Shown here: in pieces, positions 2,038 through 61,396 of the stretch
How positions within the stretch are numbered: position 1 is the first letter of the stretch
Layout: each line of letters opens with the position of its first letter
Source of the DNA: Sulfurimonas sp. endosymbiont of Alviniconcha boucheti
Lineage (GTDB): Bacteria; Campylobacterota; Campylobacteria; Campylobacterales; Sulfurimonadaceae
Length of the DNA: 61,396 bases
NCBI GenBank assembly: GCA_021766785.1
Contig: JAICBP010000084.1
Span: forward strand, 437,951-499,346
Direction: 5' to 3'
Translations under genes and position numbers: made by a program
The notes under the pieces: generated by a model
Database searches by the model: none
The model's input: only the letters and a program-made list of their open reading frames with translations
Told to the model about the DNA's origin: nothing

Positions 2038-2745
2038 TTATTGCGAAAGCTCCTCTGCATAAGAGATCATAGTGCAGAAGTGTTCTACATAGAGTGCTGC
2101 ACTTCCTACTAAAATACCATCTACATTTAACACATTTAACACCTCTTTGGCGTTTGTGACTTTTACACTACCACCGTAGAGAAGTGGTGCTTTTGATTTT
2201 TTCTTAAGTTTTTTATGTATAGAGGCTATATCTTCTAGGGTTGGAGTAAGTCCTGTGCCTATAGCCCATACTGGCTCATAAGCTATGATGAGATTTTCAT
2301 ACTCTGTATCTATACCTTCATACTGAGCAGATATATACTCCATCATCTCTTGCTCACCAGCCTCGCGTTTAGGGAGTGGTTCGCCTATGCAGTAAACTAT
2401 TTTAAAACCTAACTTCTTGTAGTAGTTAAATTTCGCTACTATCGATTCTTGAGTTTCACCTAAAATATGTCGGCGTTCACTATGTCCTATAAGTATAGTT
2501 TTAATAGCAAACTCATTAAGATGTGTTTCGCCTATCTCACCAGTAAATGCCCCTTCCTGTGTAGGATAAGCATTTTGTGCTCCTACTATAATGGAAGTAT
2601 TATTTTCATCTAGTGAACTCATTGCAGGAAACACCAGCACCTCTTGAGTGATAGCATTATTTGTTACATAACTCTCTAACTCTTGTATGTATTGTTTTGT
2701 CTCTTTTCTTGTGAAGTTTGTTTTGAGATTTGCTGCTATTATCAT
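2038..2745 (-). CDS. tpiA: Triosephosphate isomerase
   Basis: A 235-residue TIM-barrel enzyme that interconverts dihydroxyacetone phosphate and glyceraldehyde 3-phosphate in the cytoplasm. The N-terminal NLKTNF holds the substrate lysine (MIIAANLKTN), GHSERR carries the catalytic histidine, and YEPVWAIGTG carries the catalytic glutamate. LYGGSV and GILVGSAAL form the phosphate-binding loops. The length is slightly below the usual 245-255 residues, as is normal in Campylobacterota. It is the last gene of a gap-pgk-tpiA block on the minus strand, 77 bases after pgk, and serves lower glycolysis or gluconeogenesis. Confidence 0.95.
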   Translation of the reverse strand: MIIAANLKTNFTRKETKQYIQELESYVTNNAITQEVLVFPAMSSLDENNTSIIVGAQNAYPTQEGAFTGEIGETHLNEFAIKTILIGHSERRHILGETQESIVAKFNYYKKLGFKIVYCIGEPLPKREAGEQEMMEYISAQYEGIDTEYENLIIAYEPVWAIGTGLTPTLEDIASIHKKLKKKSKAPLLYGGSVKVTNAKEVLNVLNVDGILVGSAALYVEHFCTMISYAEELSQ

Positions 2746-2822
2746 TTTTTATGCCTTTAGTATATCTTTGAATGTTTACTTTACCATTTGTCTCGGTGAA
2801 GCGAAAGTGCCATATTCTGTGA

Positions 2823-4004
2823 CTACTCTGGTTTTGTAATGAGTTGTGCTACACCTGGTAGAATTTTTCCTTCTAGTAACTCTAGCGAAGCACCTCCACC
2901 TGTTGAGATAAACGTCATCTCTTCATCTACATTAATGCGTTGGACAAGGTCTGCTGTATCTCCTCCACCCACTACTGTTGTTGCATACGAGTCTGCTACA
3001 AAATGGGCTATCTTACTAGATCCACGAGCAAATTTTTCCATCTCATAGACACCCATAGGACCATTCCAAAGTACAGTTTGAACATCATTTAGTCCCTCAC
3101 GATAGAGTCTTACAGTCGCAGGACCGATGTCAAGACCCATCCATCCCTTTGGAATCTCTTGTGCTGTTACTATCTTGCTTACCGCATCTTCAGCAAACTT
3201 ATCTGCTGCTACTACATCTATAGGAAGATAAAACTTTACACCGAGCTTTTTCGCCTCATCCATAATATTTTGCGCTTCTTCTAAAAGCTCATCCTCAACA
3301 AGTGACGCTCCAATATCATAACCGAGTTGTTTGAGAAATGTAAACGCCATCCCTCCACCTATAAAGACTTTGTCCACCTTTGGAAGAAGATTGACTAGAG
3401 CTTCAAGTTTTCCTGAAACTTTACTCCCACCAACTATAGCTGCAAAAGGACGTACTGGTTCATCAATAAGCTTTCCAAAGAACTGTATCTCACGCTCTAG
3501 TAAAAATCCAGCAGCTTTATGTTTATCATCAAAAAACTTCGTAATGCCTTCTACTGAAGCATGCGATCTATGACTTACACCAAAGGCATCATTCACATAA
3601 AAATCTGCCATAGAAGCAAGTTTTTCACTAAACTTGGCATCATTTTTTGTCTCACCCATCTCATAACGGATATTTTCTAAAAGAAGTACTTCATGACGTG
3701 GTAAGTCAGCAGCAAGCTTTAGTGTAGCATCATCTACTACAGCAGGTGCTAATGCAACATGGCGTTTAAGAAGTTGTTGAAGTCTTCTTGCTACCGGTGC
3801 AAGAGAGTACTTTTCATCTACTTCACCAGAAGCTAAGATAACTGCACAGTCCTGATCTAGGCAGTAGTTTATAGTTGCTACAGCAGATCGAATACGTCTA
3901 TCATCAGAGATATTTCCAAATTCATCCATTGGAACATTAAAATCACAACGGATAAATACTTTTTTGTCTTTAATCTCTAACTTTTTTATATTTAATAATT
4001 TCAA
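2823..4004 (-). CDS. pgk: Phosphoglycerate kinase
   Basis: Transfers phosphate between 1,3-bisphosphoglycerate and ADP. The N-domain shows [12 protein letters not shown] and ENIRYEMGE, and the C-domain shows [20 protein letters not shown] and the nucleotide loop [12 protein letters not shown] and [14 protein letters not shown]. The family N-terminus is [20 protein letters not shown], so I place the start at a TTG at 4004. An ATGAGGG just upstream then supplies the Shine-Dalgarno bases (GAGGG). In-frame ATGs at 4016 and 4040 would add 4 or 12 residues that do not look like the family. Predicted length is 393 residues, the normal size. It lies between gap and tpiA. Confidence 0.93.
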
Positions 4005-4091
4005 TTTAACCCTCATGTTTATAATTTTTCTATCTCGCACTTGAGTAGTAAATCAACCCAAACGGAAAAGAGATCACTCTCCTTGACTAGA

Positions 4092-5093
4092 TTATCGAGA
4101 GATATGTAAAGCCATATCTACTAAACGCATAGAGTAACCCCACTCATTATCGTACCAAGCCATGATCTTCACCATGTCTCCTCCTATAACCTGAGTCAAA
4201 TCCTCAGCAACAATAGAAGAGTACTCACACCCTACAAAATCTTGAGAAACTCTCATCTCTTTGTCCATAAGAAGTAAGCCTTTAAGTCTGCCCTCTGCTG
4301 CTTCATTGAAAACTTTTGTCACCTCTTCTTTTGTTGTACCTCGTTTTACCACGACATTTAAGTCCACCATAGAGACATCTGGTGTCGGAACACGAACAGA
4401 CTGTCCATGAAGACGACCTTCAAGCTGAGGCATAACAAGGCTAATAGCTTTTGCAGCACCTGTTGTCGTAGGGATCATATTGATAGCACCTGCACGAGCA
4501 CGGCGTTTATCTTTTGAGTGTTTTACATCTAAGATGTTTTGATCGTTTGTATATGAGTGAATAGTAGTCATAAGTCCCTTTTCAATACCAAAAGCATCAT
4601 CTAAAATACGAGCGACAGGACCTAAGCAGTTTGTAGTACAACTGGCGTTTGATACGATCTTTTGCCCATCATATAGTTCTTCGTTTACACCCATAACAAA
4701 AGTATCTGTTTCTTTATCCTTTGATGGTGCAGAAAAAAGTACTTTTTCAATACCATTATCTAAATGTACTTGTGCAGACTCTTGTGTTAGGAAAACGCCT
4801 GTACACTCTAAAACCATATCTGCACCGCACTCAGCGAACTTGAGATTTTTAGGATCACGGTCAGAAAACACTCTTATCTTTTGACCATCAATGCTAATAT
4901 TTTCTTCATCTAATTGCTCTACACTACTTGTGAATGTAGCATGTACTGAATCATTTTTGAGAAGATATAACATCATTTCCATACTTGCCATATCGTTAAT
5001 CGCTACAACTTCAACATCATCTCTATTAGCTGCTATACGAGCGACACAACGACCAATTCTACCAAATCCATTAATTGCTATTTTAAGTGCCAT
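4092..5093 (-). CDS. gap: Glyceraldehyde-3-phosphate dehydrogenase, type I
   Basis: A 333-residue NAD(P)-dependent enzyme oxidising glyceraldehyde 3-phosphate to 1,3-bisphosphoglycerate. The Rossmann start is KIAINGFGRIGRCVAR. The catalytic cysteine sits in SNASCTTNCLGP near residue 152, the active histidine in TIHSYTNDQ, and the family phrase WYDNEWGYSMRLVD lies near the C-terminus. It is the first gene of the gap-pgk-tpiA block. The start is 60 bases from the divergent nadD-rsfS gene, so both promoters share a short AT-rich spacer. This is housekeeping carbon metabolism; in autotrophic relatives it also serves gluconeogenesis. Confidence 0.95.
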   Translation of the reverse strand: MALKIAINGFGRIGRCVARIAANRDDVEVVAINDMASMEMMLYLLKNDSVHATFTSSVEQLDEENISIDGQKIRVFSDRDPKNLKFAECGADMVLECTGVFLTQESAQVHLDNGIEKVLFSAPSKDKETDTFVMGVNEELYDGQKIVSNASCTTNCLGPVARILDDAFGIEKGLMTTIHSYTNDQNILDVKHSKDKRRARAGAINMIPTTTGAAKAISLVMPQLEGRLHGQSVRVPTPDVSMVDLNVVVKRGTTKEEVTKVFNEAAEGRLKGLLLMDKEMRVSQDFVGCEYSSIVAEDLTQVIGGDMVKIMAWYDNEWGYSMRLVDMALHISR

Positions 5094-6029: not shown

Positions 6030-7434
6030 GTTTAGACTGAGAAAGCAACTGATTTTCTAGTATATCTCTGTAATTATAAATAGACTCCACATATTTTACA
6101 GCTTCATTTCCTCTTGAGTAGCCATACTTCAAACCTCTATAGTATTTCTTCTGTGAAAGCAGAGGAAGTACTACTTTTAGATCACTCCATATATTTTCAT
6201 TAAGTCCTGTCTCTTTTGCAAGAATCTGTGCATCTCTAATATGTCCCATCCCTATATCATATGCGGCAAGTGCAAATTTGAGCCGATTTTCTCCTTTTAC
6301 CTTATCATCTACAAGCTTTAACATCTGTTTAATATGTCGTGTACCGCCAACTATACTCTCTTTTGGATTAAGTCTATTTTTGACACCAAGGAGTTTTGCT
6401 GTATGGCGAGTAAGCATCATTAATCCTCTTACACCTGTAAAACTTTTAGCTTTTGCATTCCAATGAGACTCTTGGTAAGAGATAGCAGCAATAAGTGTCC
6501 ATGGAATACCAAATTTCGTTGCCGCTTCTTGAAAAATTTTTTTGTATTTTGAAAGTCTTGATTTTATACGCTTATAAAATACCTTTATATTATAATAATC
6601 GAAAAAGAGAACATAAGAGTAGTAGTGATCTTTAAGTTGAGCTATCTTTCCTTGCTGATTATAGAAGTTTAACCATGTGTACATATCTTCTTTAAGATAT
6701 GTTGCACCAGCTGGAAGAATCCATGCAAGTTGCTCACGACCACTGATAGAAAATGCCATAGCGATTTCAGGATAATAACGTAGGTTCAAAGCATAAATAT
6801 TTGAATCGACTATGGTGCAGTCTATTTGATGTTTAGAGACTTTTTCTAAAATTTCCTCTGTTGAAAGATCTTTTGTATAAGTAGCATTTATATCAAAACC
6901 ATCATTTTTTAAGGAGATAATAGTCTCTTTATAACTTGTCTGATCCCCTACTAAGATGTTGAGACCAGCTAAATCTTCAATATCACGTGGAAAGATATTT
7001 TTATTTAACATATCTCGATGACAAACAACTTGTTCTTGTATTTCAAAATAGGAAGGACCAAAATAGTATTTTTTTTCTCGTAATGGCGTTTTTGTCAATG
7101 ATGCGGAGGTAATATCTATATCACTATCTTTACTTAGTTCTAATGCTTCTGCTATAGTATGTGCTGTTTTTATTTTAAGTTTCACTCCAAGATGTTTTGC
7201 GTACTCTTTAAGAAGATCATACTCAAAGCCTTGTTCCCCATCTACACCGATATAATAAGTTGTAGGACCATTTAAAAGTACTACACTCAGTACTTTTTTT
7301 CGTTTTATTTTCTCTAAATAAGAGATCTTTTTTATCTTTTTTCCTGGAGTATAGGCACTATGACTTAACCATCCAAAAATGAAGAGAGAAGATGCAAAAA
7401 AGCTAGAGAGCAAGAGGTACGATATTTTATTCAT
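6010..7434 (-). CDS. mltF: MltF-like membrane-bound lytic transglycosylase
   Basis: A 474-residue protein starting with a membrane anchor or signal (residues 5-25). Residues about 45-270 form a periplasmic solute-binding fold, with [32 protein letters not shown] and [15 protein letters not shown]. Residues about 300-455 form a goose-lysozyme-like SLT domain with the catalytic glutamate in [14 protein letters not shown] near residue 323 and the phrases [13 protein letters not shown] and [13 protein letters not shown]. This is the MltF architecture, which cleaves the glycan strands of peptidoglycan from the outer-membrane side. The 3' end overlaps nadD-rsfS by 20 bases in convergent orientation, and the histidine kinase gene lies 23 bases upstream. 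Confidence 0.85.
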
Positions 7435-8742: not shown

Positions 8743-9405
8743 TTACTTTAGAAGTTTGTAACCAACACCACGAACAGACTCTATGAGAGACTTATCACCA
8801 AGCTTATTTCTTATGCGACCGACCATAACATCTATACTTTTGTTTGAAGAGTCTTCATTTATGGCGTTTACATTATGGATAAGATCTTCACGCGAGACTA
8901 CAAGTCCTTGCTTTGCAATCATATAAGAGAGTATGCCAAACTCTGCATTTGTAAGTTCAATTGTACGTCCTTTATAGGTTATAACCATAGTCGCCTTATC
9001 ACATTTAAAATCACTCTTATTTTCTGCTTTTTCTTCTGACTTTGCTTCATAACGGCGAAGAACAGAGTGAATACGCGCCTCAAGTTCTCTAGGATCATAA
9101 GGCTTTGGCAAATAGTCATCTGCACCGAGTTCTAAAGCTTTTATCTTATCTGTTACATCGGAACGAGCAGAGGAGATAATAATGGGAATATCTTGGCGTT
9201 CGCGAATCGCTTCACACACCTCAAGACCATCCATGCCAGGAAGAGTCAAGTCAAGTATAACCAAGTTGAAAGGTTCCAACTTTAATATACTTACCGCTTT
9301 AAAAGGGTCATCTTCAGTAATAACCTCAAACTCAAATTGCTCTAAATACTCTGTTAATATTTCAGCAAGTTCTAAATCATCTTCTATCATTAATATTTTA
9401 TTCAT
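8743..9405 (-). CDS. OmpR/PhoB-type response regulator, ArsR-like (HP0166 family)
   Basis: A 220-residue two-domain regulator. The receiver domain has MIEDD at the start, the phospho-acceptor Asp in LVILDLTLPGMDG (about residue 52), and a lysine in DYLPKPYDPRELEARIHSVL. A winged-helix DNA-binding domain follows, with LTNAEFGILSYMI, SREDLIHNV and SIDVMVGRIRNKLGD, ending in RGVGYKLL. The start is set at MNKILMIEDD. A longer frame back to 9537 would add 44 residues foreign to the family. It pairs with the histidine kinase just downstream. Confidence 0.9.
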   Translation of the reverse strand: MNKILMIEDDLELAEILTEYLEQFEFEVITEDDPFKAVSILKLEPFNLVILDLTLPGMDGLEVCEAIRERQDIPIIISSARSDVTDKIKALELGADDYLPKPYDPRELEARIHSVLRRYEAKSEEKAENKSDFKCDKATMVITYKGRTIELTNAEFGILSYMIAKQGLVVSREDLIHNVNAINEDSSNKSIDVMVGRIRNKLGDKSLIESVRGVGYKLLK

Positions 9406-9597: not shown

Positions 9598-10699
<1,102 letters not shown>

Positions 10700-11745: not shown

Positions 11746-13884
11746 TTAAAATAAAAATCGTGTGAAGGTGTAAGCTATAAACGCCATGATATAAGCAACT
11801 ACTGAAGTGAATGCAAAAAGATAGAAAAAGTACTTGATATGCCCAGCTTCACGAGTAAAGACTATAGAAGCTGCTAAACAAGGTAGATAAATCATAATAA
11901 CCACAATAAACGCCACTGCAGATGGAAATGAGATATTTTTACTTATGGCACCCATCAGTGATCTGTTCTCTTGATCAACATCATTTCCTAATGCATATAA
12001 AACACCAAGAGTAGAAACAACAACTTCTTTTGCAGCTAAACCAGCTTGCAAGGCTACACTCATTTTCCAGTCAAAACCAAGTGGTGTAAAAATAGACTCT
12101 GAAAATTTTCCTATTACCCCTAAATAACTCTGTTCTAGTTCTAATTCATTCAGCGTATTATGTAGCTCTTCTTTAAGGACTATATCTTTTGTCTGTTCTA
12201 TCTTTGTCTCATAACTTTGAGTGAGTTTAATGTTATGCGGGTAGTTACTTAAAAACCAGATAAGCATAGAGGCAGCTGCTATGTAAGTGCCTGCTTTTTT
12301 AAGATACATCATAGTCTTTGTAAGAACTGTATGCCAAATAAGTTTAAAAGTTGGTAGTCTATACTTTGGCATCTCCATAACAAAAGGTTCATCTTTGCCT
12401 TTAAATGCGGTAAGTTTAAGAATTTTTGCTGAGATGAGACCAAGAATAGCTCCACTTACATAAATAAAAAAAAGAATATTTCCTGCCATTTCAGGAGAGA
12501 AGAAAGCTCCTGCAAAAAGCACATAGACAGGCAGTCTAGCACCACAAGACATAAAACCAATAATGAAGAGAGTAAGAAGTCTATCTCGATCATTCTTAAG
12601 GATTCTTGCAGACATATAAGCTGGAATAGAACACCCAAAACCAGTTACAAGAGGAATAAAACTCTGTCCATGCAGTCCAAACTTATGGAAAAAACCATCA
12701 AGCAAAAATGCAACTCGACTCATGTAACCAGTCCCCTCAAGTAGAGCAATACCCATAAAAAGAATAATGATATTTGGCACAAAAAGGACTACTGCTCCAA
12801 CACCTGCAATAACACCATCTACTACTAAGGAGCGTATATCATCATTAGCTATTGTCGCTCCTATCGTATCACCAAACCAAGTGAAAAATATATCTATATA
12901 CTCCATAGGAATATTACCTATTTCAAAAGTGAGCTGAAAAAGTGACCACATAAAAAAGAGAAAGATAGGAATACCTAAAACTGGGTGAATCAAAATAGAG
13001 TCTATCTTTTCAGTAAGTGTCCTTTTCTCTTCTTGCTTTTTTTGATTAAGTACTTCTGCTGTGACACCACGGTTAAATGAAGCATACTCTTCAGCAAAAG
13101 CCTCCTTAATATCATCACTATTATGGTGAAGTTTTATATGCTTTCCTGCTTCTATAAGTATAGGCTGTAACTCTATCCAAATAGGTTCATCATGCAATTT
13201 AGCATAAGTTGTTTTATCTCCTTTGAGGAGATTAATTGCAATATTTCTGTAAGTATTTTCCGATTCAAACTTATGCTTATCAAGATACCACACTAGTTGC
13301 GCTATCTCCTCTTCTACAGATTCGCTAAAGTATAGTTTTGTCTGACTTTTTGCTGTTTCATATTTAAGAGTCACTGCTTCTATAAGCTTATCTATACCCT
13401 CTTTTGTTACCGCTGAAACTTTTATACAAGGTACACCTATAAGCTCTGACATATACTCTGCATCTATATTGATACCCTCTTTCTCAGCTTCATCTATCAT
13501 GTTTAATGCAATGACCACTTGTTTACTCATAGTAAGAAGTTCTGAAGTGAGTTGTAGGTTTTTTTCTAAATTTGTAGAATCTACGACATTTATTATAATA
13601 TCATAATCTCCTGTACATAAGTATTCGTGGGTTACACGTTCTTCTATAGTGTAGTCAGTAAAGGCATAAGTTCCTGGGAGATCGACCACCGTAAAATGAT
13701 ACTCTTTATAGTTAAAAAGTACTTCTGTTTTATCTACTGTAACACCGGAAAAGTTTCCTACATGCAGATGTGCATTTGACACAGAGTTAATAAGCATACT
13801 CTTTCCAACATTTGGTTGTCCTACAAGTGCTACTTTTATATGGTTTATTATTATGGGACAAGCTTTTGCATCTACTCTATTCAT
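11746..13884 (-). CDS. feoB: Ferrous iron transporter FeoB
   Basis: A 712-residue inner-membrane Fe(II) transporter. The N-terminal G domain shows G1 GQPNVGKS, the G2 region NFSGVTVDKTEV, G3 DLPGTYAF and G4 NMIDEAEKEG, followed by a helical GDI-like segment. From about residue 290 come many transmembrane helices with two Gate motifs (GVGAVVLFVPNI with TGFGCSIPAYMSARI, and AGLAAKEVVVSTLGVLYALG). The start overlaps the feoA stop by 4 bases (ATGA), so the two are translationally coupled. A Fur box lies upstream of feoA, which predicts induction under iron limitation. Confidence 0.95.
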   Translation of the reverse strand: MNRVDAKACPIIINHIKVALVGQPNVGKSMLINSVSNAHLHVGNFSGVTVDKTEVLFNYKEYHFTVVDLPGTYAFTDYTIEERVTHEYLCTGDYDIIINVVDSTNLEKNLQLTSELLTMSKQVVIALNMIDEAEKEGINIDAEYMSELIGVPCIKVSAVTKEGIDKLIEAVTLKYETAKSQTKLYFSESVEEEIAQLVWYLDKHKFESENTYRNIAINLLKGDKTTYAKLHDEPIWIELQPILIEAGKHIKLHHNSDDIKEAFAEEYASFNRGVTAEVLNQKKQEEKRTLTEKIDSILIHPVLGIPIFLFFMWSLFQLTFEIGNIPMEYIDIFFTWFGDTIGATIANDDIRSLVVDGVIAGVGAVVLFVPNIIILFMGIALLEGTGYMSRVAFLLDGFFHKFGLHGQSFIPLVTGFGCSIPAYMSARILKNDRDRLLTLFIIGFMSCGARLPVYVLFAGAFFSPEMAGNILFFIYVSGAILGLISAKILKLTAFKGKDEPFVMEMPKYRLPTFKLIWHTVLTKTMMYLKKAGTYIAAASMLIWFLSNYPHNIKLTQSYETKIEQTKDIVLKEELHNTLNELELEQSYLGVIGKFSESIFTPLGFDWKMSVALQAGLAAKEVVVSTLGVLYALGNDVDQENRSLMGAISKNISFPSAVAFIVVIMIYLPCLAASIVFTREAGHIKYFFYLFAFTSVVAYIMAFIAYTFTRFLF

Positions 13885-14220: not shown

Positions 14221-14778
14221 ATGAAATTTCTTTGGACACCCTCTTCTCACTTTAATCTCGCAAATCTTTTTACATTTGTAAATATTACAGCTGGTCTTAT
14301 GGCGACCTACTTCATCACACAGCATAACTTTGTTTTAGCTATTGTTTTAGCTTGGATTGGTGGTGCATTTGATATCTTTGATGGTAAAATAGCAAGAAAG
14401 TACAATCTTAGTAATGAATTTGGAGTACAACTTGATAGCTTTGCAGACTTTTTAAGCTTTGTTCTTGTACCTGTTTTTCTTATATTTCAAGCAATATACT
14501 CTACCCAACTCCATTCTATCTCTCTTCTTGTAGCTTCTTTTATTAGTATCTACTATGTTATCTCTGGACTACGCAGACTTATACACTTTAACCTCAATGC
14601 AGACGCAGGTGAGGTCGAGAACTATTTTACAGGTGTACCAACACCACTTGGAGCTATACTTTTGTGGCTTGTTTATCTTACAAATGCTTATGGTATTCTA
14701 CCGGCGTTTGTAGTAATAGGGGCTATGGCTATTATCGCTTGGAGTCTTAACTCTACTATAAAAGTTAAGCATCCTTAG
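14221..14778 (+). CDS. pssA: CDP-diacylglycerol-serine O-phosphatidyltransferase (PssA-type CDP-alcohol transferase)
   Basis: A 185-residue membrane enzyme with about five hydrophobic helices. The CDP-alcohol signature runs through FDIFDGKIARKYNLSNEFG and VQLDSFADFLSF, giving the DG-AR-G-D-D metal-binding pattern. SGLRRLIHFNLNA and YFTGVPTPLGAILLW are typical of type II PssA. It makes phosphatidylserine, the precursor of phosphatidylethanolamine. It is shorter than many PssA proteins (about 230-250 residues) but the catalytic core is complete. The last 14 bases overlap a small convergent gene. Phosphatidylglycerophosphate synthase is a less likely alternative. Confidence 0.8.
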   Translation: MKFLWTPSSHFNLANLFTFVNITAGLMATYFITQHNFVLAIVLAWIGGAFDIFDGKIARKYNLSNEFGVQLDSFADFLSFVLVPVFLIFQAIYSTQLHSISLLVASFISIYYVISGLRRLIHFNLNADAGEVENYFTGVPTPLGAILLWLVYLTNAYGILPAFVVIGAMAIIAWSLNSTIKVKHP

Positions 14779-21639: not shown

Positions 21640-21993
21640 TTAGTTCTTACATTTTTTGCAACTATGATAGTCGCTTTTGATGAGTTCAATTTCAGAGTGC
21701 AATAACTCTTCTATCTCAACTGCACCATCAAAAGACTCAACAACATCTAAATCAATACTGCCATCATCTTCAAAAATACCATCATTGATAAAAAATTCTA
21801 TATTTTCATCAAGTGATAGTATAAACTCCTCCGCACAGATATCACAATCTTTATACAGAGATCCACTAAGTTTTGCTTTAAGTAGAATTAATTTGCCCAT
21901 ATAATACTCTAAATAACCTTTAAAAGTTATTTCGTTAGACTTTATTTCAAAATCTAATGGCGTTTTTGTAACACGCCTTAGTACTATCTTCAC
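21640..21993 (-). CDS. yceD: YceD/DUF177 family protein, 23S rRNA accumulation
   Basis: A 117-residue acidic protein. The paired cysteines CDICAEEF and the C-terminal HSCKKCKN fit the YceD (DUF177) family, which sits upstream of rpmF in most bacteria and affects 23S rRNA accumulation. The acidic centre (DDGSIDLDVVESFDGAVEIE) is also typical. It lies 27 bases before rpmF and 9 bases after ndk, in one likely operon. Confidence 0.85.
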   Translation of the reverse strand: MKIVLRRVTKTPLDFEIKSNEITFKGYLEYYMGKLILLKAKLSGSLYKDCDICAEEFILSLDENIEFFINDGIFEDDGSIDLDVVESFDGAVEIEELLHSEIELIKSDYHSCKKCKN

Positions 21994-28072: not shown

Positions 28073-28128
28073 CTTTCACTCCACAATCAAATATCTTTTA
28101 TTATATCTATTCAATCAAAAAGAATACC

Positions 28129-30383: not shown

Positions 30384-30391
30384 ATTTTATA

Positions 30392-47391: not shown

Positions 47392-48378
47392 TTAGAGAGT
47401 GCTTCTTGGTGAACTTTTTAACTCTGCTAAAGAAGTAAACATTTTATTTTTATACATATCTACTCCAACTCGTCCTATCATAGCCGCATTATCTGAACAG
47501 TATTTTAGTTCGCTCAAGAGGAGCTCTGCATTATAATCTTGAAGAAGGTTTTTTATTTGTGAACGAAGATATAGGTTGGCAGAAGCTCCACCAACAATGG
47601 CAAAGGTTTTTGGTCTATTTGTTTTAAAGTACTTTTTGAGTTTCATAGTCAAGTGTTTTGTTGCTATATACTCAAAAGAGGCTGCTATGTCTTGAAAGTT
47701 TGGTTTCTCTCTTTTCTCCTCTTCAAGGAGTGCTAAACGTACAGCATTTTTAAGTCCTGAGTAACTAAATGCGATAAGAGGGGATTGGTGAAGTGGTACA
47801 GTAAAGTTATGCTTAAGTCTATCACCACCTCGTGCAAGATCTTCAATAGCTGGACCTCCTGGATAGCCAAGGTGCATCATCTTTGCTACCTTATCAAAAC
47901 TCTCCCCAAAGCTATCATCCATACTCTTTGCTACTGTCTCTATCTCTGTAAGGCTTTTTACTTCCATTACCTGAGTATGTCCACCTGAAACGAGTAAAAC
48001 AGTAAGAGGAAAATGTGCCTCTTTCTCTATAAAAAGTGAGTAGATATGTCCAATAAGATGATTTACTCCGATAATGGGAATATCAAACGCCACAGCTACA
48101 GCCTTAGCCATTGTAACACCCTCTACAAGACTCACAGCAAGACCTGGTGTAGCAGTAACAGCTACCGCTTTGAGTTTTGGAAAATACTTACTCACTTGCT
48201 CAAGTATCTTTGGCAGTGCTTCAGCATGAAGACGAGCAGCGAGTTCAGGAACCACACCACCATATACACTATGCTCTAGTTCTTGACTTATTTTCTTGTG
48301 AAAGAGTAGCTTTTTTGTCGCTATCTCAGTAATCGCAATAGCACTATCATCACATGAACTCTCTATACTTAGTATCAT
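47392..48378 (-). CDS. tsaD: tRNA N6-adenosine threonylcarbamoyltransferase TsaD
   Basis: A 328-residue ASKHA-fold enzyme making t6A37 in ANN-decoding tRNAs. The start [16 protein letters not shown], the metal-binding [42 protein letters not shown] and SGLKNAVR identify it. [13 protein letters not shown] near the end is also standard. It is essential housekeeping, with 100 bases between it and the tpx start. Confidence 0.95.
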
Positions 48379-48612: not shown

Positions 48613-49161
48613 ATGAAATTAGCATTTAAAAATGTGATCATATTGAGTTGTATTATTTTACTGAGTAATACTTTATTAGCAGAGGGATTAACACTAAAGA
48701 GCAAAGATATAAGTGGACAAATATCTATTAACCAAGTTTTTAATGGTTTTGGATGTAATGGAAAAAATATTTCACCACAACTGCAATGGAGTAATCCTCC
48801 AAAAGGAACTAAAAGTTTTGCTGTGACTATTTATGATCCAGATGCACCAACAGGAAGTGGATGGTGGCATTGGGTCATTTTTGATATTCCAAAAGGTACA
48901 TATCAAATCGTATCAAACGCCAGTGCTTTAAATAGATTGCCAAAGGGGTCAATTCAGAGTAAAACAGATTTTGGTAAGAGTGAGTTTGGTGGTGCTTGTC
49001 CTCCAAAGGGTTCTCAAGCTCATGCCTATATAGCTACAGTATATGCACTTGATATCAAAAAATTAGGATTAGATAAAGATGCAAATCCTGCACTAGTTGG
49101 ATTTATGTTAAACTCTCATACTATAGAGAAGAGTTCTATCATAGCTTACTATAAAAGATAA
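48613..49161 (+). CDS. Secreted PEBP / YbhB-YbcL family protein
   Basis: 182 residues with a signal peptide (about 1-23, NVIILSCIILLSNTLLA). The PEBP core is clear: NGKNISPQLQWSNPPKGTKS, FAVTIYDPDAPTGSGWWHWV, and FGGACPPKGSQAHAYIATVY carrying the ligand pocket. These proteins bind phosphate-type ligands, and bacterial roles are little known. An AAAAAGGAG precedes the start. It is monocistronic and convergent with comEC. Confidence 0.88.
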   Translation: MKLAFKNVIILSCIILLSNTLLAEGLTLKSKDISGQISINQVFNGFGCNGKNISPQLQWSNPPKGTKSFAVTIYDPDAPTGSGWWHWVIFDIPKGTYQIVSNASALNRLPKGSIQSKTDFGKSEFGGACPPKGSQAHAYIATVYALDIKKLGLDKDANPALVGFMLNSHTIEKSSIIAYYKR

Positions 49162-49198
49162 TTGTTAGAGAGTGGCGTTTAGACTTATTTTCAATATC

Positions 49199-50488
49199 TT
49201 AAGTTAAAACCATATAACATTCATAGAGAACATAAAAAAAGAGAGAGAGGGTGTAAGTCACTAAGAGTAGTAGAATTTTTTTTCTATAAAGCGTAAGTAG
49301 AGAGAGTAAAATTTGCACTACTAAAAAGTAGTAACTTATTTCTATGAGTATGCTCTCCTCTCCTAACTGCATCAGATTTCGTAGTAAAAAATCTAGTAAA
49401 TCCCCATGTCCTAATATATGTAAAAGAATTGCCAATGGATAGTAGAGTGTAAAGAGAGAAGTCCAGAGTATGGAGAGTGGATGGTAGATACTAAAGTTAG
49501 CAAAGATGACTAAAGAGTATGGGAGCATCATAAGATAAACCCAGAGTGGTAAGATTAAAAATTGCCAAAGTTTTGAGTGGCGTTTAAAAAAGATAAGAAA
49601 CAAAAAGATGTAAAACACACCACTACTACTAAGCCAAAAACCTAGACTGAAGAAAAGTCGTACAAAGAGGGCTAAGATAAGTAAAATGGTAAGAAGCAGA
49701 GTCTCCATAGAGAGTACTTCAACTCCTCTATCATAAAGTACAAAACCGACAATAAGCATCACAAAAGCTCGAAGCAGAGAGGGTGGTGAGTCTAAAAAAA
49801 GTAGATAACTCAAAAGAAAAAAGCCTATCATGATAAAAGAGTCCACCTTATAACTTCTATAAGGAAAAAATCTATCTTGTAAAAATCTATAAGGGTATTT
49901 TATGAGAAAAAAGAGCAAAGCAGAGAGTGCACCTAAGTGAAAACCACTAATAGCAATGAGATGTGAAACACCAAGATTTGAAAAGATTTTTTGTAACTCA
50001 TAAGGAAGCTGCTTTGCTGAAAAAAGTGCTTGATAGAGTAGTGATATATCTTTATCTTTATGCTGCTTATCTATAAAATTATTGAGCCTTTTTTTGTAGG
50101 AGTTATCGGGGTAGATTTTAAGAATTTTAGAAAAACAGTAGAAGCCATGCATATACTCATAAAAGCTGATTTTACCTGCCCATACCTCTAACTGTACTCT
50201 TGTATATTTTATATTTGAAAGTTTTTTACTTGCTGTAGAGTAAAAAACAAAGCCTTTATCACTTTTAAACTTAAGCACTTGATAGGTTTTTATTTTGCCT
50301 TTTTTTGTAAGTTTTGATTTTGAGTACTGCTTGAGAACTGTGGCGTTTACAAGTTGAGAGTCAAACTTTGTAAGCTCTTTATAGTTATAATACTCAAAGC
50401 TTATAGAGAGTGTAAAAAGTACAAAAAGAAGTAAAAGAAGATGGAGAGAGTCTCGCCTATTTCTAAAGAGGGGAACTTTCTCTAGCAT
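49199..50488 (-). CDS. comEC: ComEC/Rec2-type competence DNA channel (short form)
   Basis: A 429-residue membrane protein from ATG at 50488. It has one helix near residues 15-35, then a soluble OB-like segment, then the competence domain with FSNLGVSHLIAISGFHLGAL and a run of about eight helices including DSPPSLLRAFVMLIVGFVLY. ComEC carries transforming single-stranded DNA across the inner membrane. There is no C-terminal metallo-beta-lactamase domain, as in other Campylobacterota. It starts one base after the dnaB stop. A longer frame inside dnaB is rejected. Three copies of the YGGCGTTTR motif lie in or beside it. Confidence 0.87.
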   Translation of the reverse strand: MLEKVPLFRNRRDSLHLLLLLFVLFTLSISFEYYNYKELTKFDSQLVNATVLKQYSKSKLTKKGKIKTYQVLKFKSDKGFVFYSTASKKLSNIKYTRVQLEVWAGKISFYEYMHGFYCFSKILKIYPDNSYKKRLNNFIDKQHKDKDISLLYQALFSAKQLPYELQKIFSNLGVSHLIAISGFHLGALSALLFFLIKYPYRFLQDRFFPYRSYKVDSFIMIGFFLLSYLLFLDSPPSLLRAFVMLIVGFVLYDRGVEVLSMETLLLTILLILALFVRLFFSLGFWLSSSGVFYIFLFLIFFKRHSKLWQFLILPLWVYLMMLPYSLVIFANFSIYHPLSILWTSLFTLYYPLAILLHILGHGDLLDFLLRNLMQLGEESILIEISYYFLVVQILLSLLTLYRKKILLLLVTYTLSLFFYVLYECYMVLT

Positions 50489-50489
50489 T

Positions 50490-51935
50490 TTAGAGTGTTG
50501 GCATATCCGCTTTAGGAACATCCATCTGTGCAGATGATGTGTCAATGTTCTCATAAACAGTCTCAATACCAGCACTAAAAGTAGGTCTATCTATAAAACG
50601 AGTAAGTTTTTTCTGAAAAATAAGTTTGACATGTCCTGTAGGACCATTACGCTGTTTACCTATAATGATTTCTGCTTCTTCTTCCTCTTTCTCTATATAC
50701 TCAGAGACAAACTCTTTTCCTTCTGCTTTAGCAGCTTTTTCTCGTTCTTTCTCTTCCTTGTAGAGATAAACATCATCACGATAAACAAAGAGAATAATAT
50801 CGGCATCTTGCTCAATAGAACCAGACTCACGAATATCACTTAGCATAGGACGTTTATCATTACGAGACTCTAATCCACGGTTGAGTTGAGAGAGTGCGAC
50901 TATTGGCATCTCAAGCTCACGTGCAAGCATCTTCAGCCCACGAGAGATATCTGAAACTTGAAGGTGTCGATCTTGGTTTCCACTACCTTGCATAATTTGG
51001 AGATAATCTATGACCGCTATCTCTATCTCTGGATGTTGGTTTTTAAGTTTACGTAGCTTACTACGAAGTTGGTTGATATTGATACTTCCTTGATCATCAA
51101 CATAAAGTTTTGCACTATTCATATTATCGATGGCACCATTGAGACTTGACCACTGATCATCATTCATATCCCCCACACGAAGTTTTTGTAAAGGTATAGA
51201 AGTCTGTATGGAGAGTAGACGTAACATTAGCTGTTCAGCAGGCATTTCAAGGGAGAAGAAGGCTACACCTTTTCCATTCATAATGAGACTATTTACTGTA
51301 TTGAGTATAAATGAAGTTTTCCCCATTGCTGGACGTGCAGCGATAATAACTAGGTCACCCTTTCCAAAACCAGTTGTCATTTTATTGAGTTCTGCATATC
51401 CTGTATCAACACCTACTAGGAGATTATTTCCACGAGCTTTCATCTCTTTGATGTACTCCATTGTATCAAAGGTCATTTTTGGGGCATCTTTGAAGTCTGA
51501 AGTTTGGTTATCCTGAGTAATATCATAGAGTTTTTTCTCTACTATGTCTATGACTTCAGAGGAAGGAAGCTCCTCTTCTACTGTTACCCGTTTTATCTCA
51601 GTTGTGAGTGTTAAGAGATGGCGTTTAAGAGACTTCTCTTTTATCTCATCCACATAGGCTTTTGTATTTGAGATAGGGTTCGCAGAGAGTATCTCAATCA
51701 TCACCTGTTCATCAAACTTCTTTATCTTGATAAGCTCTTTTTTAATGAACTCTTCATCTATTGGTTGATCTTTTTGAAAAAGTAACATCATAACATTGAA
51801 AATATCTTGATGTGCAGGGAGATAAAAATCATCCTCACTTAAAGTAGTTGAGAGATCATCAAACTGACTTGGCTCAAAAACTATAGAGCTTAAGATAGAG
51901 CGTTCAAACGCTAAGTTGTAAAGATTATCTTGCAT
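50490..51935 (-). CDS. dnaB: Replicative DNA helicase DnaB
   Basis: A 481-residue hexameric helicase. The N-terminal helical domain (MQDNLYNLAFERSILSSIVF) binds primase. The RecA domain has Walker A IIAARPAMGKTSFIL, Walker B IAVIDYLQIMQG, VALSQLNRGLESR, and SDIRESGSIEQDADIILFVY. IGKQRNGPTGHVKLIF near the end is typical. It runs directly into comEC on the same strand. Confidence 0.95.
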   Translation of the reverse strand: MQDNLYNLAFERSILSSIVFEPSQFDDLSTTLSEDDFYLPAHQDIFNVMMLLFQKDQPIDEEFIKKELIKIKKFDEQVMIEILSANPISNTKAYVDEIKEKSLKRHLLTLTTEIKRVTVEEELPSSEVIDIVEKKLYDITQDNQTSDFKDAPKMTFDTMEYIKEMKARGNNLLVGVDTGYAELNKMTTGFGKGDLVIIAARPAMGKTSFILNTVNSLIMNGKGVAFFSLEMPAEQLMLRLLSIQTSIPLQKLRVGDMNDDQWSSLNGAIDNMNSAKLYVDDQGSININQLRSKLRKLKNQHPEIEIAVIDYLQIMQGSGNQDRHLQVSDISRGLKMLARELEMPIVALSQLNRGLESRNDKRPMLSDIRESGSIEQDADIILFVYRDDVYLYKEEKEREKAAKAEGKEFVSEYIEKEEEEAEIIIGKQRNGPTGHVKLIFQKKLTRFIDRPTFSAGIETVYENIDTSSAQMDVPKADMPTL

Positions 51936-52042
51936 GAGATCTACTCCTTATATTCTGTTTTGTTTTGTGTAGAGTTCTTTTATAGGTTTCAGTATATCCA
52001 TCTGGCGTTTGTACCAAAGAGAGGAAGTAATTTTCAGCATCT

Positions 52043-53104
52043 TTAGTCCACTCTCTCTGCCATCTCTTCAACCTCACTGACAAATCTATCAACAAGGGCA
52101 TCTTCATCAAGGTTCGCTACAACTTCACCCTTAACCATGACAAGCCCCTTGCCTTTGCCATAAGCTATAGCTACATCAGCATGAGCTGCTTCACCAATGG
52201 CGTTTACTACACAACCCATCACTGAGACATTGAGTGGTGTTTTAATATGTGCAGTTCTTCTCTCTATTTCAGCAACTGCTGTTACTAAGTCAGCTTCTAT
52301 GCGACCACAAGTAGGACAAGAGATAATGTTAAGACCATCTGGCATAGCTCCACTATCTTTTAAGATAGCACGAGCAACTTTGATCTCCTCTTCAAGCTCC
52401 CCTGTTATACTAATACGCATAGTATCACCGATACCATCAAGTAGAAGAGTTCCAAGCCCTATGGAACTTTTTACTGTAGCATGAAAAAGTGTTCCAGCTT
52501 CTGTAACACCAAGATGAAATGGATAATTATTTTTAGGGCGTAACATTCTGTAAGCATCTACTGTTCTACCTACATCACTCGCTTTGAGAGATATTTTTAT
52601 ATCAGAAAAACCTAAATCTTCGAGGTATTTTATGTTGTACTCAGCAGAGGCTACCATACCCTCATGCGTCTGTCCGTATCTATTTTCAAACTCTTTTTCC
52701 AAACTTCCTGAATTAACACCTATACGAATAGGAAGAGAGCGTTCTTGACAAGCTTTTACTATCTCTTTTATGCGAGATTTCTCACCAATATTTCCTGGAT
52801 TAAAACGGATACAGTCCACTGACTCAGCAGCTATGAGAGCTAGTTTATAATTGTAATGAATATCTGCTACAAGTGGAAGAGATATCTGCTCTTTGATAGA
52901 CTTGAGAGCAAGAGCATCTCTCATATCTGGTACAGCGACACGAACTATATCTGCTCCTGCAAAGTGGAGACGATTTATCTGCTCAAGTGTAGCTACTACA
53001 TCATGGGTATTTGAGTAAGTCATAGACTGCGTACTAATAGGTGCATCACCACCAACAGCTACATCACCAACATATATTTTTTTTGTAGGGTATCGTTTTA
53101 TCAT
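52043..53104 (-). CDS. ispG: 4-hydroxy-3-methylbut-2-enyl-diphosphate synthase IspG
   Basis: A 353-residue Fe-S enzyme of the MEP isoprenoid pathway. The start [20 protein letters not shown], the barrel phrases [11 protein letters not shown] and [17 protein letters not shown], and the cluster cysteines in [12 protein letters not shown] and [17 protein letters not shown] are standard. It precedes dnaB by about 107 bases on the same strand. Confidence 0.95.
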
Positions 53105-53152: not shown

Positions 53153-55123
53153 CTAAAACTTCAAATCAACATTTGCATAGAGGTAACGTCCTGGTTCATT
53201 CAGTAGCATTATATTCCCACCACCAGCCATGATAAGTGTTAGATCAGCATAAGTGTTACTTGTTGCATAGCTAGTATCAAAGATATTATTAGCTCCTATG
53301 GTAAGGTCAAACTTTTTGTTAATTGCATGTTTAAGTTTGAAGTTAAGTATGTTCCATGCATCTATGCTCTGTTCACCATTATCATCATCATACTTACTCC
53401 ACTTCTCACTAGCTTTAAACTCTAGTGTTGCTAAAGAGTTGTTGGCATACTCATAGTTGCATGCAAATCTAGCATGCAGAGGTGCCATATTAGCTAGGTC
53501 TTTATCGCTTTGCCCCTCAAGTGCTTTCTCTTTTTCTCCTCTCTTGTAAGCTGCTGTCATATCTAAACTGATAGCATCATTTATATAATAGCTAAGAGTA
53601 GCTTCCCCTCCATAAATTACGGCATCTATATTATAAAAGGCATGAGTTGTTACTCCCTTTTTAATGTAGATATAATCCTGAAGTTGGGAGTAAAAAGCTT
53701 TTATCTTTAGCATAAAGTCATCACTACTATTTTCGTACCCTATATCCAGCTCACGGTTAATAGTCTGTTTAAGGTTTGGTGTTCCTACTACATTACCATT
53801 TTTTAAGAAGTAGAGTTCTCTTGCATCTGGGACACGTGATGCTTGCCCAATTCCAGCAAAAAGCTTGTTATTATCATTGAGGTGATAAGAGGAAAATATA
53901 TTTACACCAATTGCTTGGTAATTATTATCTTGTAAGCCACCTTCATTTGTAATTTTCGTTGTATCTAAGCGCACACCCATACTTAGATCGATATCTCTAT
54001 AACTATTATCTATTTTTGTAAAAAGAGCCATATTCTCTGTTGTAGTATTACTGAGACTATTTGCTTTATAAACTCTGGTAGTGGCATTTTGATACTTTCC
54101 ACTCCATTGGCGTTTACTAGCATCAGCTCCAAGAAGTAGCTTGTATGTAGAGAATTTTAAAGTATTCTTAAACTTTACACCTTGTATAGAAGATTGCATT
54201 GCATTTGTAGTATTTTTAGCAGGGTTACTAGAAGCTTTTCTATATTTTGTACTCATTGGGTGATCTACATCTGAGTAGTAGTACTGAATGTTTACATTTT
54301 TGTAGTTTCTGCTTAAATCTTTGAGATCATAAGCGATGGAATAGATATTTGAATTATCATAGAGTGCATCCATCGGTGTATTTGCATAGAGTATGTTTGT
54401 ACTTCTATTTGCTGTCACACTCAGTTGTAGCTCTTGTTTTTTTAAGGTACTAATAAAGACTTTCATATTGATACTGTTTTTTGTATAAGATGAGGCATCT
54501 TCAAACTCTGCTTTATATTGATTACCTAAAGGTGCTTTCTCTTTTGTTTGCTGTACAAGAGTATTTCCATCTCCATCTTTATATTGATCACTTGACTGAG
54601 TAGAAGCACTTACTAACGCTCGAACTCTGTCATTTCCTCCACTTACTGTTGCACCAAATTTTTTGTAGTTAAAAATACCAGCACCTATATTGAGTTCAAT
54701 TTTTGTTTTTTTTGTTGGCTTTTTTGTTTTTATCTTTATACCACCACTAAGTGTTCCAAAGTTATTTACATCATAAGGACCCTCTATAACTTCAATACTC
54801 TCTATCTGACTTGCTAGGATATGAGAAATTGGTGGATCCATACGATTTGGACAAGCTCCTTTTATCTTTGTTCCATCTATCTCTACAGAGATATTATCAC
54901 GTTTCTGCCCACGAATAAAAATATCATTTGCTATACCACTACGACGGCTTATATCTATACTTGGAACATTTGTACTGAGAGCTTGGGCTACATCTGCTGA
55001 AGTTTGAGCATTTTGTGCAACTTCTGTTATGCGAGTTGACTCTACCCCTAGAGTTTCAAGTTCTATTTCAGCAGCACTAAGAGAAGCAGTCACAAAACAA
55101 GAGAGTAAAATTCTTTTTTTCAT
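53153..55123 (-). CDS. TonB-dependent outer-membrane receptor, OprC/NosA-like, probably copper
   Basis: A 656-residue receptor with signal peptide (1-18), plug domain with DVAQALSTNVPSIDISRRSG, DIFIRGQKRDNISVEIDG and IESIEVIEGPYDVN, and a 22-strand-type barrel ending LYANVDLKF. The plug contains GACPNRMDPPISHI near residue 90, giving the CxxxM motif that binds copper in OprC and is shared with NosA, the receptor needed for nitrous oxide reductase maturation. The substrate call is by motif analogy. It follows ispG in the same direction after a 48-base gap. Confidence 0.85.
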   Translation of the reverse strand: MKKRILLSCFVTASLSAAEIELETLGVESTRITEVAQNAQTSADVAQALSTNVPSIDISRRSGIANDIFIRGQKRDNISVEIDGTKIKGACPNRMDPPISHILASQIESIEVIEGPYDVNNFGTLSGGIKIKTKKPTKKTKIELNIGAGIFNYKKFGATVSGGNDRVRALVSASTQSSDQYKDGDGNTLVQQTKEKAPLGNQYKAEFEDASSYTKNSINMKVFISTLKKQELQLSVTANRSTNILYANTPMDALYDNSNIYSIAYDLKDLSRNYKNVNIQYYYSDVDHPMSTKYRKASSNPAKNTTNAMQSSIQGVKFKNTLKFSTYKLLLGADASKRQWSGKYQNATTRVYKANSLSNTTTENMALFTKIDNSYRDIDLSMGVRLDTTKITNEGGLQDNNYQAIGVNIFSSYHLNDNNKLFAGIGQASRVPDARELYFLKNGNVVGTPNLKQTINRELDIGYENSSDDFMLKIKAFYSQLQDYIYIKKGVTTHAFYNIDAVIYGGEATLSYYINDAISLDMTAAYKRGEKEKALEGQSDKDLANMAPLHARFACNYEYANNSLATLEFKASEKWSKYDDDNGEQSIDAWNILNFKLKHAINKKFDLTIGANNIFDTSYATSNTYADLTLIMAGGGNIMLLNEPGRYLYANVDLKF

Positions 55124-59399: not shown

Positions 59400-59477
59400 A
59401 TCTTGCTACTCCTCATAAATTGTTAACTAAAATAGTAAGACTATAAAATTCTATAACTCTGTTGCCAATATTTTTAA

Positions 59478-59576
59478 ATTATAACTAAGAAAATAGGAAA
59501 AATTGACCCCGCAATAGCGGGAATCAAAGGATTAGCGAAAAGTATTGAAGATGAAAATAGTGAACTCTATTTTTAA
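59478..59576 (+). pseudogene. Short coding remnant before the SNF2 gene
   Basis: Between two minus-strand genes, the plus strand reads KKIGKIDPAIAGIKGLAKSI and EDENSELYF, then TAA. It has no start codon nearby and an in-frame stop just upstream. It looks like the C-terminus of a lost gene. The same bases form a CCCGC-AATA-GCGGG hairpin at 59508-59521. Confidence 0.3.
59508..59521. terminator. GC-rich hairpin between the surface-protein and SNF2 genes
   Basis: CCCGC at 59508-59512 and GCGGG at 59517-59521 around AATA form a strong 5-bp stem, 52 bases past the surface-protein stop. On the minus strand it is followed by CAATTTTTCC, so it may end that transcript. Confidence 0.4.
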
Positions 59577-60480
59577 TTACCAATTATAAATAAGCCCTTC
59601 TTATTATCAGTCACATAAATCTTTGTACCATCACTTGATAGAGTAACACCATATACAGCCCCAATAGCTATCTTATATGAGCCAAGCTTAGTTGGATGAG
59701 CTGGATCGCTCGTATCAACAATGACCAAATCATTAGTAGTATCAGCTAGATAAGTCTTTGTGTTATCACTTGATATAGTAACACTAAATGATCCCCCAGC
59801 TGTATCGTATGATCCAAGTTTAGTTGGATGAGCTGGATCACTTATATCTAGTATGACTAAACCATTTTCCCAATCAGCTACATAAGCCTTTGTACCATCA
59901 CTTGATAGAGTAACATTATATGCATTCCCAGCTGTATCGCATGAGCCAAGCTTAGTTGGATGAGCTGGATCACTTATATCAACTATAACTAAACCATTAG
60001 TATCATCAGCTACATAAGCCTTTGTGCCATCACTCGATAGAGTAATACCCATTGACTTCCCAGCTGTATCGTATGAGGCAAGCTTAGTTGGATGAGCTGG
60101 ATTACTTATATCTAGTATGACTAAACCATCTTCCCAATCAGCTAGATAAGCCTTTGTACTATCACTTGATAGTATAACATGTCTTGCAGTCCCAGCTGTG
60201 CCATATGAGCCAAGCTTAGTTGGATGAGCTGGATTACTTATATCTAGTATGACTAAACCATTATAACCATCAGCTACATAAGCTTTTGATCCATCACTTG
60301 ATAAAGTAACATTTTGTGAACTCCCTTTTGTATTGTATGAGCCAAGTTTAGTTGGATTTGATGGGTCGCTTATATCAACGATGACTAAACCATTACTCCA
60401 ATCAGCTACATAAGCCTTTGAGCCATTACTTGATAGAGTAACACTTACTGCAAACCCTGCTGTCTCTAATGAGCCAATCG
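59573..60480 (-). repeat. Seven tandem 132-bp repeats encoding LVIVD blades
   Basis: The phrase GTTGGATGAGCTGGA recurs with starts at 59691, 59823, 59955, 60087 and 60219 and a variant at 60351, exactly 132 bases apart. Central copies are nearly the same at the DNA level, so copy number could change by recombination. Confidence 0.9.
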
Positions 60481-61396
60481 TATATAGATTAGCAGTATCT
60501 ACCATTATCTGTACTTCTTTTCTTGTAGCAGGGGTGCTAAAGTTGTTGTCAGCAGATGTTATATAGTCTCGATACTTCTGTATATTATCTTCATCTATAT
60601 TGTTAAGTGATGGAAAGATACTCCTTAGATCTGCAACTGTTATAGTTGAACTAGCATTATGATGATCTTGTCCAATACGTACAAGAGTAGCCTTTGAAGC
60701 ATTAACTGCATCTATCATACTCTGCAGTTCAGCTCTTGTAGCCGGTGAACTAAAGCTTGTATCTGCACTTGCTATATAGCTACGATAACTATCTTGATAA
60801 TCATCATTTATATTCTCAAGTGCTGGAGTAATAGCTTTTAGTTGTGCAACTGTTACAGTTGATTTATGATTACGGTGTTCATTACCTATCACTTTGAGGA
60901 TACTAACTAATCTCTCTGCTGGCGTTTGATCTTTTATACAACGGACAGAGAATCCACGCCCACGGTAGCTATTACTATAGTCATTTGCATCCAGAGTACC
61001 GTTATGAAACCATAGGTCATGCGGGTATAGTGCGTTTTCTATTGAACCAGTCCAGTACATTCCCTCATTACCTGCATAACCTACACTGTCGCTTTTCCAG
61101 CGCATACCAGCTGTAGGCAGTTTCAGGTCACTTGACATAGAACCGCTATGATTTTGTGAGCTCCAAGTTTGTGTCTCTACATAAAATTCATTAGCAGTAT
61201 CATTTGCTTTATTTGGATTTAGTGGTAATCTGTATCCTACTGGACAGACATTGTTTGCGCTTGATTCGCTTGCCCATAGAGTATCATCTCGGTTTACTCT
61301 CCAATCACTTTGTTTGATAAAGAGTGAATCAGATGGATTATCATTTTTTGTATCTGTGTCACCGTATCTTCCAGTTCCTGTAGTAGCATCTGTCCA
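59573..61396 (-). CDS. Surface-type protein with FISUMP-like domain and seven LVIVD propeller repeats (N-terminus beyond window)
   Basis: The frame is open from the window end to 59573, giving 607 residues of a larger protein. The first ~130 residues have NNVCPVGYRLP, GMYWTGSIENALYPHDLWF and GRGFSVRCIKD, the pattern of the Fibrobacter succinogenes major paralogous domain. Then come two similar ~60-residue helical units (each with ITSADNNFSTPATRKE-like text). The last 305 residues are seven copies of a 44-residue LVIVD repeat (LVILDISNPAHPTKLGSY), enough for one seven-bladed propeller. It is probably exported and adhesin-like. An ATG at 61138 is internal, not the start. Confidence 0.8.
   Translation of the reverse strand, partial: WTDATTGTGRYGDTDTKNDNPSDSLFIKQSDWRVNRDDTLWASESSANNVCPVGYRLPLNPNKANDTANEFYVETQTWSSQNHSGSMSSDLKLPTAGMRWKSDSVGYAGNEGMYWTGSIENALYPHDLWFHNGTLDANDYSNSYRGRGFSVRCIKDQTPAERLVSILKVIGNEHRNHKSTVTVAQLKAITPALENINDDYQDSYRSYIASADTSFSSPATRAELQSMIDAVNASKATLVRIGQDHHNASSTITVADLRSIFPSLNNIDEDNIQKYRDYITSADNNFSTPATRKEVQIMVDTANLYTIGSLETAGFAVSVTLSSNGSKAYVADWSNGLVIVDISDPSNPTKLGSYNTKGSSQNVTLSSDGSKAYVADGYNGLVILDISNPAHPTKLGSYGTAGTARHVILSSDSTKAYLADWEDGLVILDISNPAHPTKLASYDTAGKSMGITLSSDGTKAYVADDTNGLVIVDISDPAHPTKLGSCDTAGNAYNVTLSSDGTKAYVADWENGLVILDISDPAHPTKLGSYDTAGGSFSVTISSDNTKTYLADTTNDLVIVDTSDPAHPTKLGSYKIAIGAVYGVTLSSDGTKIYVTDNKKGLFIIGN

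Follow-up and report, generated by a model that had tools for sequence, protein, structure and literature searches.

TGGCGTTTR in a Sulfurimonas endosymbiont genome: an over-represented, strand-neutral word, replaced by other words in relatives, as a probable uptake-sequence dialect

A stretch of 61,396 nucleotides from the Sulfurimonas sp. endosymbiont of Alviniconcha boucheti (the window) was found to be rich in the word GGCGTTT, mostly in the form TGGCGTTTR. The over-representation was confirmed as real and extends through the source genome (G000; other G numbers denote genomes of relatives). TGGCGTTTR is probably this species' dialect of a DNA uptake or self-recognition sequence. From its distribution, and from the different words that take its place in related species, we infer an uptake preference, a receptor and a drive that would have spread the word.

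Over-representation of TGGCGTTTR

Exact counting on both strands gave 37 copies of GGCGTTT in the window (20 plus, 17 minus; range 2149–60927), compared with a mean of 2.0 and a maximum of 6 in 100 dinucleotide shuffles of the same sequence. The wider context was YGGCGTTTR for 30/37 copies and TGGCGTTTR for 24/37. Within called open reading frames (ORFs) lay 35/37 copies, the exceptions being those at 49174 and 52004. An earlier note, made by eye from the letters of the window, had reported the same count, strand split and span, a Y before and an R after most copies, a G+C content of roughly 35% (measured, 34.3%) and the same two extragenic copies. All of this agreed with the exact count and the ORF comparison, which added no further extragenic copies.

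Across the 2.24 Mb and 83 contigs of G000, TGGCGTTTR occurred 573 times (267 plus, 306 minus), and the reversed word, used as a control, five times (2+3). Detailed statistics were obtained for 0.81 Mb of the genome, or about 0.71 Mb once masked N were removed; long masked stretches, among them G000:C73:100001–120000 and parts of C82, were kept outside local density counts. In the 0.81 Mb, 370 copies of GGCGTTT were present versus 21.9 expected from a second-order Markov model. The preceding base was T (75%) or C (16%) and the following base A (48%) or G (35%), giving a logo of T/C + GGCGTTT + A/G with zero information in the outer flanks on both sides. Because these flanks carry no information, the word does not belong to a longer repeat, and an origin from a mobile repeat was rejected on the same ground. 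The mean spacing of YGGCGTTT copies in G000 was 1.9 kb.

Codon use was controlled for by shuffling synonymous codons within each gene of G000, which keeps both the protein and the codon use. On the sense strand of genes, TGGCGTTTR was found 97 times versus 5.9 in the shuffles and its complement 111 times versus 4.9, an excess of 16–22-fold. All six frames were used, sense and antisense copies were about equally common, and the top coding 8-mers were the word itself and its overlaps. A codon-use origin was therefore rejected. More broadly, a by-product of codon or amino acid use, a transposed repeat or an assembly artefact would draw support from the genic position of 35 of the 37 window copies, but is already contradicted by the excess over the codon-preserving null in six frames, by the unconserved flanks, by the presence of TGGCGTTTR in independently assembled relatives and by the mutual exclusion of the words that replace it (below). 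Such an origin has practically no probability left.

The two strands were used about equally, with 52/55 copies on contig C73 and 100/114 on C82, intermixed along the contigs, and no clear relation to GC skew was seen on either of them. In the near-complete relative G151, the strands were mixed in 20 samples around the chromosome, and the balance also holds for the other dialect words described below. The strict replichore polarity of FtsK-orienting polar sequences (KOPS) and the orientation bias of Chi sites were both absent, and this lack of polarity disfavours KOPS and the usual form of Chi. The earlier note had argued from the window that the word is no codon effect and is too evenly divided between the strands for KOPS or Chi, and had proposed a genome-wide count against a Markov model; the two arguments held, and the count gave a large excess.

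Replacement words in relatives

By a conserved gene, the closest named relatives of G000 are Sulfurimonas metagenome-assembled genomes. The comparison covered 135 Sulfurimonas genomes (G000 and 134 other species assigned to its genus by the kinship labels of the genome search), many of the relatives being draft metagenome-assembled genomes; words were discovered in samples of 12–400 kb, taken from two other genera and from 31 relatives within Sulfurimonas. Many of the sampled relatives had a different over-represented word of their own, similar in strength to TGGCGTTTR, and genome-wide counts agreed, with densities as high as that of TGGCGTTTR or higher. TGGCGTTTR itself stood at a background of about 20 per genome in nearly all other Sulfurimonas and was high in close relatives of G000 (G151, 464; G193, 258; G210, 244; G221, 207; G167, 198; G182, 188; G200, 180; and others). 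YTGCGTTT reached 4199 copies in G140, 3157 in G069, 2970 in G095 and 2567 in G156, and was at background in G000 (69). TGCGTGAG was counted 962 times in G001, 948 in G203, 785 in G190, 767 in G188, 757 in G031, 688 in G147 and 621 in G019; outside these seven genomes, the count was 99 in G197 and at most 75 in others. YTACATGTA was found 1257 times in G137, 1213 in G215 and 1162 in G115, with further genomes following, and TAGATGCWA 959 times in G087, 914 in G127 and 810 in G101.

Genomes were assigned to a dialect mostly when its word reached some 300 copies or more and about 3–5 times the reversed control, and the minimum was set lower for TGGCGTTTR and for a few incomplete genomes; these thresholds were chosen by eye after the counts had been seen. 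The four dialect groups (32, 7, 25 and 14 genomes) comprised 78 of the 135 genomes and were mutually exclusive: the overlap was 0, where 15.5 would be expected. Zero overlap never came up in 20,000 random draws, a figure that is descriptive because the draws ignore relatedness.

One count was inflated by a separate feature. The region G059:C3:140001–180000 (L248/L249) contains, at joined positions 27448–36257, about 135 copies of CTTGAACCGATACATGTAATGTATTGAAAC, one every 66 bases, which form a CRISPR-like array that carries TTACATGTA on one strand. The array explains the strand excess of TTACATGTA in G059, and its ~135 copies raised the YTACATGTA count of that genome, leaving its dialect group unchanged. 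A further word, AAAAGAG, was over-represented in G000 and in many Sulfurimonas samples, even versus codon-preserving shuffles. It was rejected as a comparable word for its gene-strand bias (745 sense versus 286 antisense in G000); its preference for the sense strand of genes makes it a different kind of feature, tied to the gene strand.

Several of the words are related. YTGCGTTT differs from TGGCGTTT by one base, and TGCGTGAG has TGCGT in common with both. G151 holds both one-base variants (678 YTGCGTTT and 464 TGGCGTTTR), as well as TCGCGTTTA, whereas G000 lacks the other form, TTGCGTTT being depleted (12 versus 27.6 expected); a two-variant genome beside a single-variant one is a pattern as in a dialect switch. 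TGGCGTTTR, YTGCGTTT and TGCGTGAG are all non-palindromic. The 10 bases of YTACATGTAR form a palindrome, which occurs as TTACATGTAA in some species and as CTACATGTAG in others. On a tree of two proteins, IspG and DnaB, some nodes of which are weak, the dialects were patchy, with repeated switches. The close group around G000 included genomes with TGGCGTTT, both forms, YTGCGTTT, TAGATGCWA (G225) and AGCATGTGGA (G219), and YTACATGTA appeared in two separate places.

When the sites of G000 were aligned to other species, the cores differed by few bases and the flanks were homologous, so that copies arise by point substitution in place and not by insertion. TGGCGTTTR was retained at 10 of 34 sites in G151 and at few in other species. 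The word is absent from the longest motif-free stretches of G000, to which this part of the analysis was confined, and these hold accessory genes: a type I restriction-modification system, a non-ribosomal peptide synthetase, an SNF2/PLD and SMC-like cluster and another N6-methyltransferase gene. Such content is as expected if the word accumulates in long-resident DNA.

The turnover of words bears on two explanations that the strand balance already disfavours. Chi-like recombination hotspots, read by AddAB or RecBCD, would fit the length and density of the word and the lack of copies in the longest accessory stretches, and known Chi sites are likewise short core-genome words in excess. Known Chi words are, however, common to related genera, whereas the Sulfurimonas words have no orientation bias relative to replication, are rapidly replaced within the genus, several different ones occurring there, and include palindromes; a Chi-like role is very unlikely. 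A nucleoid, segregation or replication signal (KOPS, parS-like or nucleoid occlusion) would suit a word spread over the whole genome, but KOPS are polar, parS-type sites are few, and genus-wide conservation would be expected of such a signal, not replacement by unrelated words. We regard it as highly improbable. Chi, KOPS and codon effects all fit the data poorly.

Competence genes and receptor candidates

A comEC-like gene, for the inner-membrane DNA channel of natural transformation, lies at 49199–50575 on the minus strand of the window (Pfam PF03772 Competence, E = 5e-23); it provides context and is not sequence-specific. In genomes where the locus was readable, two or three pilin-like genes were found about 10 kb from ispG (G001, G137, G115, G047, G071, G089, G095, G093 and G225 among them). 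Pilin-like genes lie directly upstream of priA in G001; in G000, priA (C81:378255–380096) is closely preceded by a pilin motif at C81:377040, and the same order was seen in G117, G151 and G215. Of the competence machinery that an uptake-sequence system calls for, comEC and the pilin-priA locus are thus present and conserved. In Campylobacter jejuni, the pilin-motif protein cj0683 is encoded in an operon before priA and is needed for the efficient start of DNA uptake (PMC10046745). The cj0683-priA arrangement is the same as that of the Sulfurimonas locus.

The priA-linked pilins were considered as a candidate determinant of dialect, and alignments and predicted folds gave no clear link. G117 has one detectable N-methyl pilin-type gene, the one beside priA, and still keeps its dialect, a point in favour of the uptake reading. 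A type II secretion operon next to the window (C82:503–513 kb) was rejected as the uptake system, as its pilin cluster was not listed for several dialect-bearing genomes, among them G001, G087 and G093.

Proposed mechanism and comparison with known systems

Under the uptake reading, a surface or periplasmic competence component would bind TGGCGTTTR on double-stranded DNA in either orientation, the bound word being either bare or methylated as in C. jejuni. DNA carrying the word would be preferentially taken up and recombined, and alleles with a mutation-made copy would therefore spread. The word would accumulate throughout the core genome at places where the encoded protein can accommodate it, and not in newly acquired islands. 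Should the recognition component shift its specificity, a new word would build up while the old one decayed, producing species-specific dialects.

The pattern fits the uptake-sequence dialects of Neisseriaceae and Pasteurellaceae more closely than it fits any rival, although switching is unusually fast and some forms are palindromic. Like the DNA uptake sequences of Neisseriaceae (PMC3630211), the Sulfurimonas words are short, occur in hundreds to thousands of copies on both strands, form dialects one or a few bases apart in related species and include two-dialect genomes. They differ in being 8–10 bp long, in the absence of the Neisseria core CTG from TGGCGTTTR, in being mostly intragenic and rarely in hairpins, and in that some dialects within the genus seem unrelated or palindromic. 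The uptake signal sequence of Pasteurellaceae (AAGTGCGGT / ACAAGCGGT; PMC12616744) resembles TGGCGTTTR in its 9-mer core and in a spacing of similar order. It has two known dialects, whereas Sulfurimonas, in a different phylum, has many more, and its word has no flanking extension.

C. jejuni, of the same phylum, takes up only DNA methylated at RAATTY, the methylation being by CtsM (PMC8468864, PMC10046745). It too has a priA-linked pilin-motif competence protein and ComEC, and it discriminates self-DNA at the first step of uptake, as is proposed for Sulfurimonas. Unlike the Sulfurimonas words, RAATTY is short and degenerate; its recognition requires methylation, and the Sulfurimonas words may be read bare or methylated.

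Methylation also underlies the main rival explanation, in which a methyltransferase resident in the genome has the dialect word as its target, and the word accumulates through methylation-dependent repair or recombination, with no role in uptake. Its model is the cyanobacterial repeat HIP1, one of a class of massively repeated octamer-class words, in whose place some related lineages have other palindromes, every one of them matched by its own methyltransferase (PMC4390886). The YTACATGTAR dialect is similarly a palindrome, and methyltransferase genes are present in G000. HIPs are palindromic, however, and at least three Sulfurimonas dialects (TGGCGTTTR, the word of G000, YTGCGTTT and TGCGTGAG) are not; furthermore, the methyltransferases seen in G000 sit in motif-free accessory stretches, and one is of type I, a class that reads split sites. 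On balance, this explanation is unlikely. A mixed model may possibly apply, in which the methylated word is what is recognised during uptake.

Several observations weigh against an uptake role. In G000, the density of TGGCGTTTR was lower in intergenic than in genic DNA, and its one-mismatch relatives showed no general excess. In the stretch of G000 read for close pairs, six pairs of YGGCGTTT lay less than 60 bases apart and few were inverted; systematic pairing into terminator hairpins was not found there, and a terminator-hairpin role was rejected. The inverted terminator pairs of Neisseria, and partly of Haemophilus, are common and not essential, since a single uptake-sequence copy suffices for transformation (PMC12616744). 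The palindromic YTACATGTAR dialect is unlike known uptake sequences and like HIP1, and 57 of the 135 Sulfurimonas genomes fell into none of the four dialect groups. In alignments of the genomes compared, the priA-linked pilins showed no visible sorting by dialect; nothing in the PDB significantly matched their predicted folds, and their isoelectric points were mixed. A paper showing competence in Sulfurimonas was not found in the open-access literature.

The suggestion in the earlier note that the word is an uptake sequence is nevertheless plausible overall. The genome-wide excess over Markov and codon nulls and the lack of polarity speak for it, as does the turnover between related genomes for which that note had proposed to look, and which goes beyond plain loss in that relatives carry other words; the word may instead act through methylation, or may be recognised in methylated form during uptake. 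The comEC gene that it had placed in the window was found there. It knew of no uptake sequence of this form in Campylobacterota, and the open-access literature yielded no earlier description of a TGGCGTTTR-type word in the phylum, although one may exist elsewhere.

Two bacterial families have well-established uptake sequences, and Sulfurimonas would, if the uptake reading is true, independently add a third case. Having many dialects, and dozens of genomes for each, the genus would offer a natural series of co-evolution between reader and word, in which biased-uptake spread (molecular drive) could be tested against selection to exclude foreign DNA. The dialects would also predict gene exchange between Sulfurimonas species and provide a practical tag for transforming them.

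Positions of the copies in the window

On the plus strand, exact matches to GGCGTTT lie at 2149–2155, 3761–3767, 4502–4508, 4644–4650, 7085–7091, 8863–8869, 10318–10324, 14703–14709, 21959–21965, 32909–32915, 40766–40772, 41964–41970, 49174–49180, 49579–49585, 50342–50348, 51620–51626, 52004–52010, 52199–52205, 54109–54115 and 60921–60927. By gene call, those at 49579–49585 and 50342–50348 are within comEC, that at 51620–51626 is within dnaB and that at 52199–52205 within ispG; ORF comparison places 49174–49180 and 52004–52010 outside called genes. Matches on the minus strand lie at 3342–3348, 4793–4799, 11779–11785, 11908–11914, 17848–17854, 23741–23747, 26909–26915, 28342–28348, 28912–28918, 33407–33413, 38055–38061, 38677–38683, 39713–39719, 42560–42566, 43443–43449, 48085–48091 and 48915–48921.

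In three relatives, dnaB was split after residue 207 (G137, L208; G127, L219, 7187–9664; G219, L185, 13085–15562). The insertion, of about 1030 bases, was in the same place in all three and has the size of a possible intein.

Words beyond Sulfurimonas

TAGAWTCTA was strongly enriched in many genomes of one Campylobacteria family, with up to 1239 copies, and was at background in other sampled families and in some genera of the enriched family. The Helicobacter loci sampled had TAGAATCTA/TAGATTCTA or TGGAATCT as over-represented words. There is about an even chance that a sequence code for self-DNA is in use across much of the class Campylobacteria, with many mutually exclusive dialects (YNGCGTTTR, TGCGTGAGR, YTACATGTAR, TAGATGCWA, TAGAWTCTA and others), palindromic or not. 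Such dialects would switch between close species faster than those of Neisseriaceae and Pasteurellaceae. Their reader would be a receptor, alone or paired with a methyltransferase, and among environmental lineages they would mark out the groups that exchange genes.

Among individual loci, the Helicobacter loci L033, L034 and L080 showed strong, strand-balanced words, either TGGAATCT or TAGA(A/T)TCTA, and TAGAWTCTA was entirely lacking in some genera of the family to which Helicobacter belongs. In 11.2 kb of Campylobacter sp. UBA1713 (L044), coding GGCGTTT was found 17 times versus 3.4 expected, the core word thus recurring in a distant genus, and AAATTTG was also in excess. Other phyla, sampled as loci of about 21 kb, gave weaker codon-corrected word signals. 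A 21.7 kb Akkermansia locus (L068) contained words such as ATCGTACAT, found 26 times versus 0.2, possibly as an interspersed repeat.

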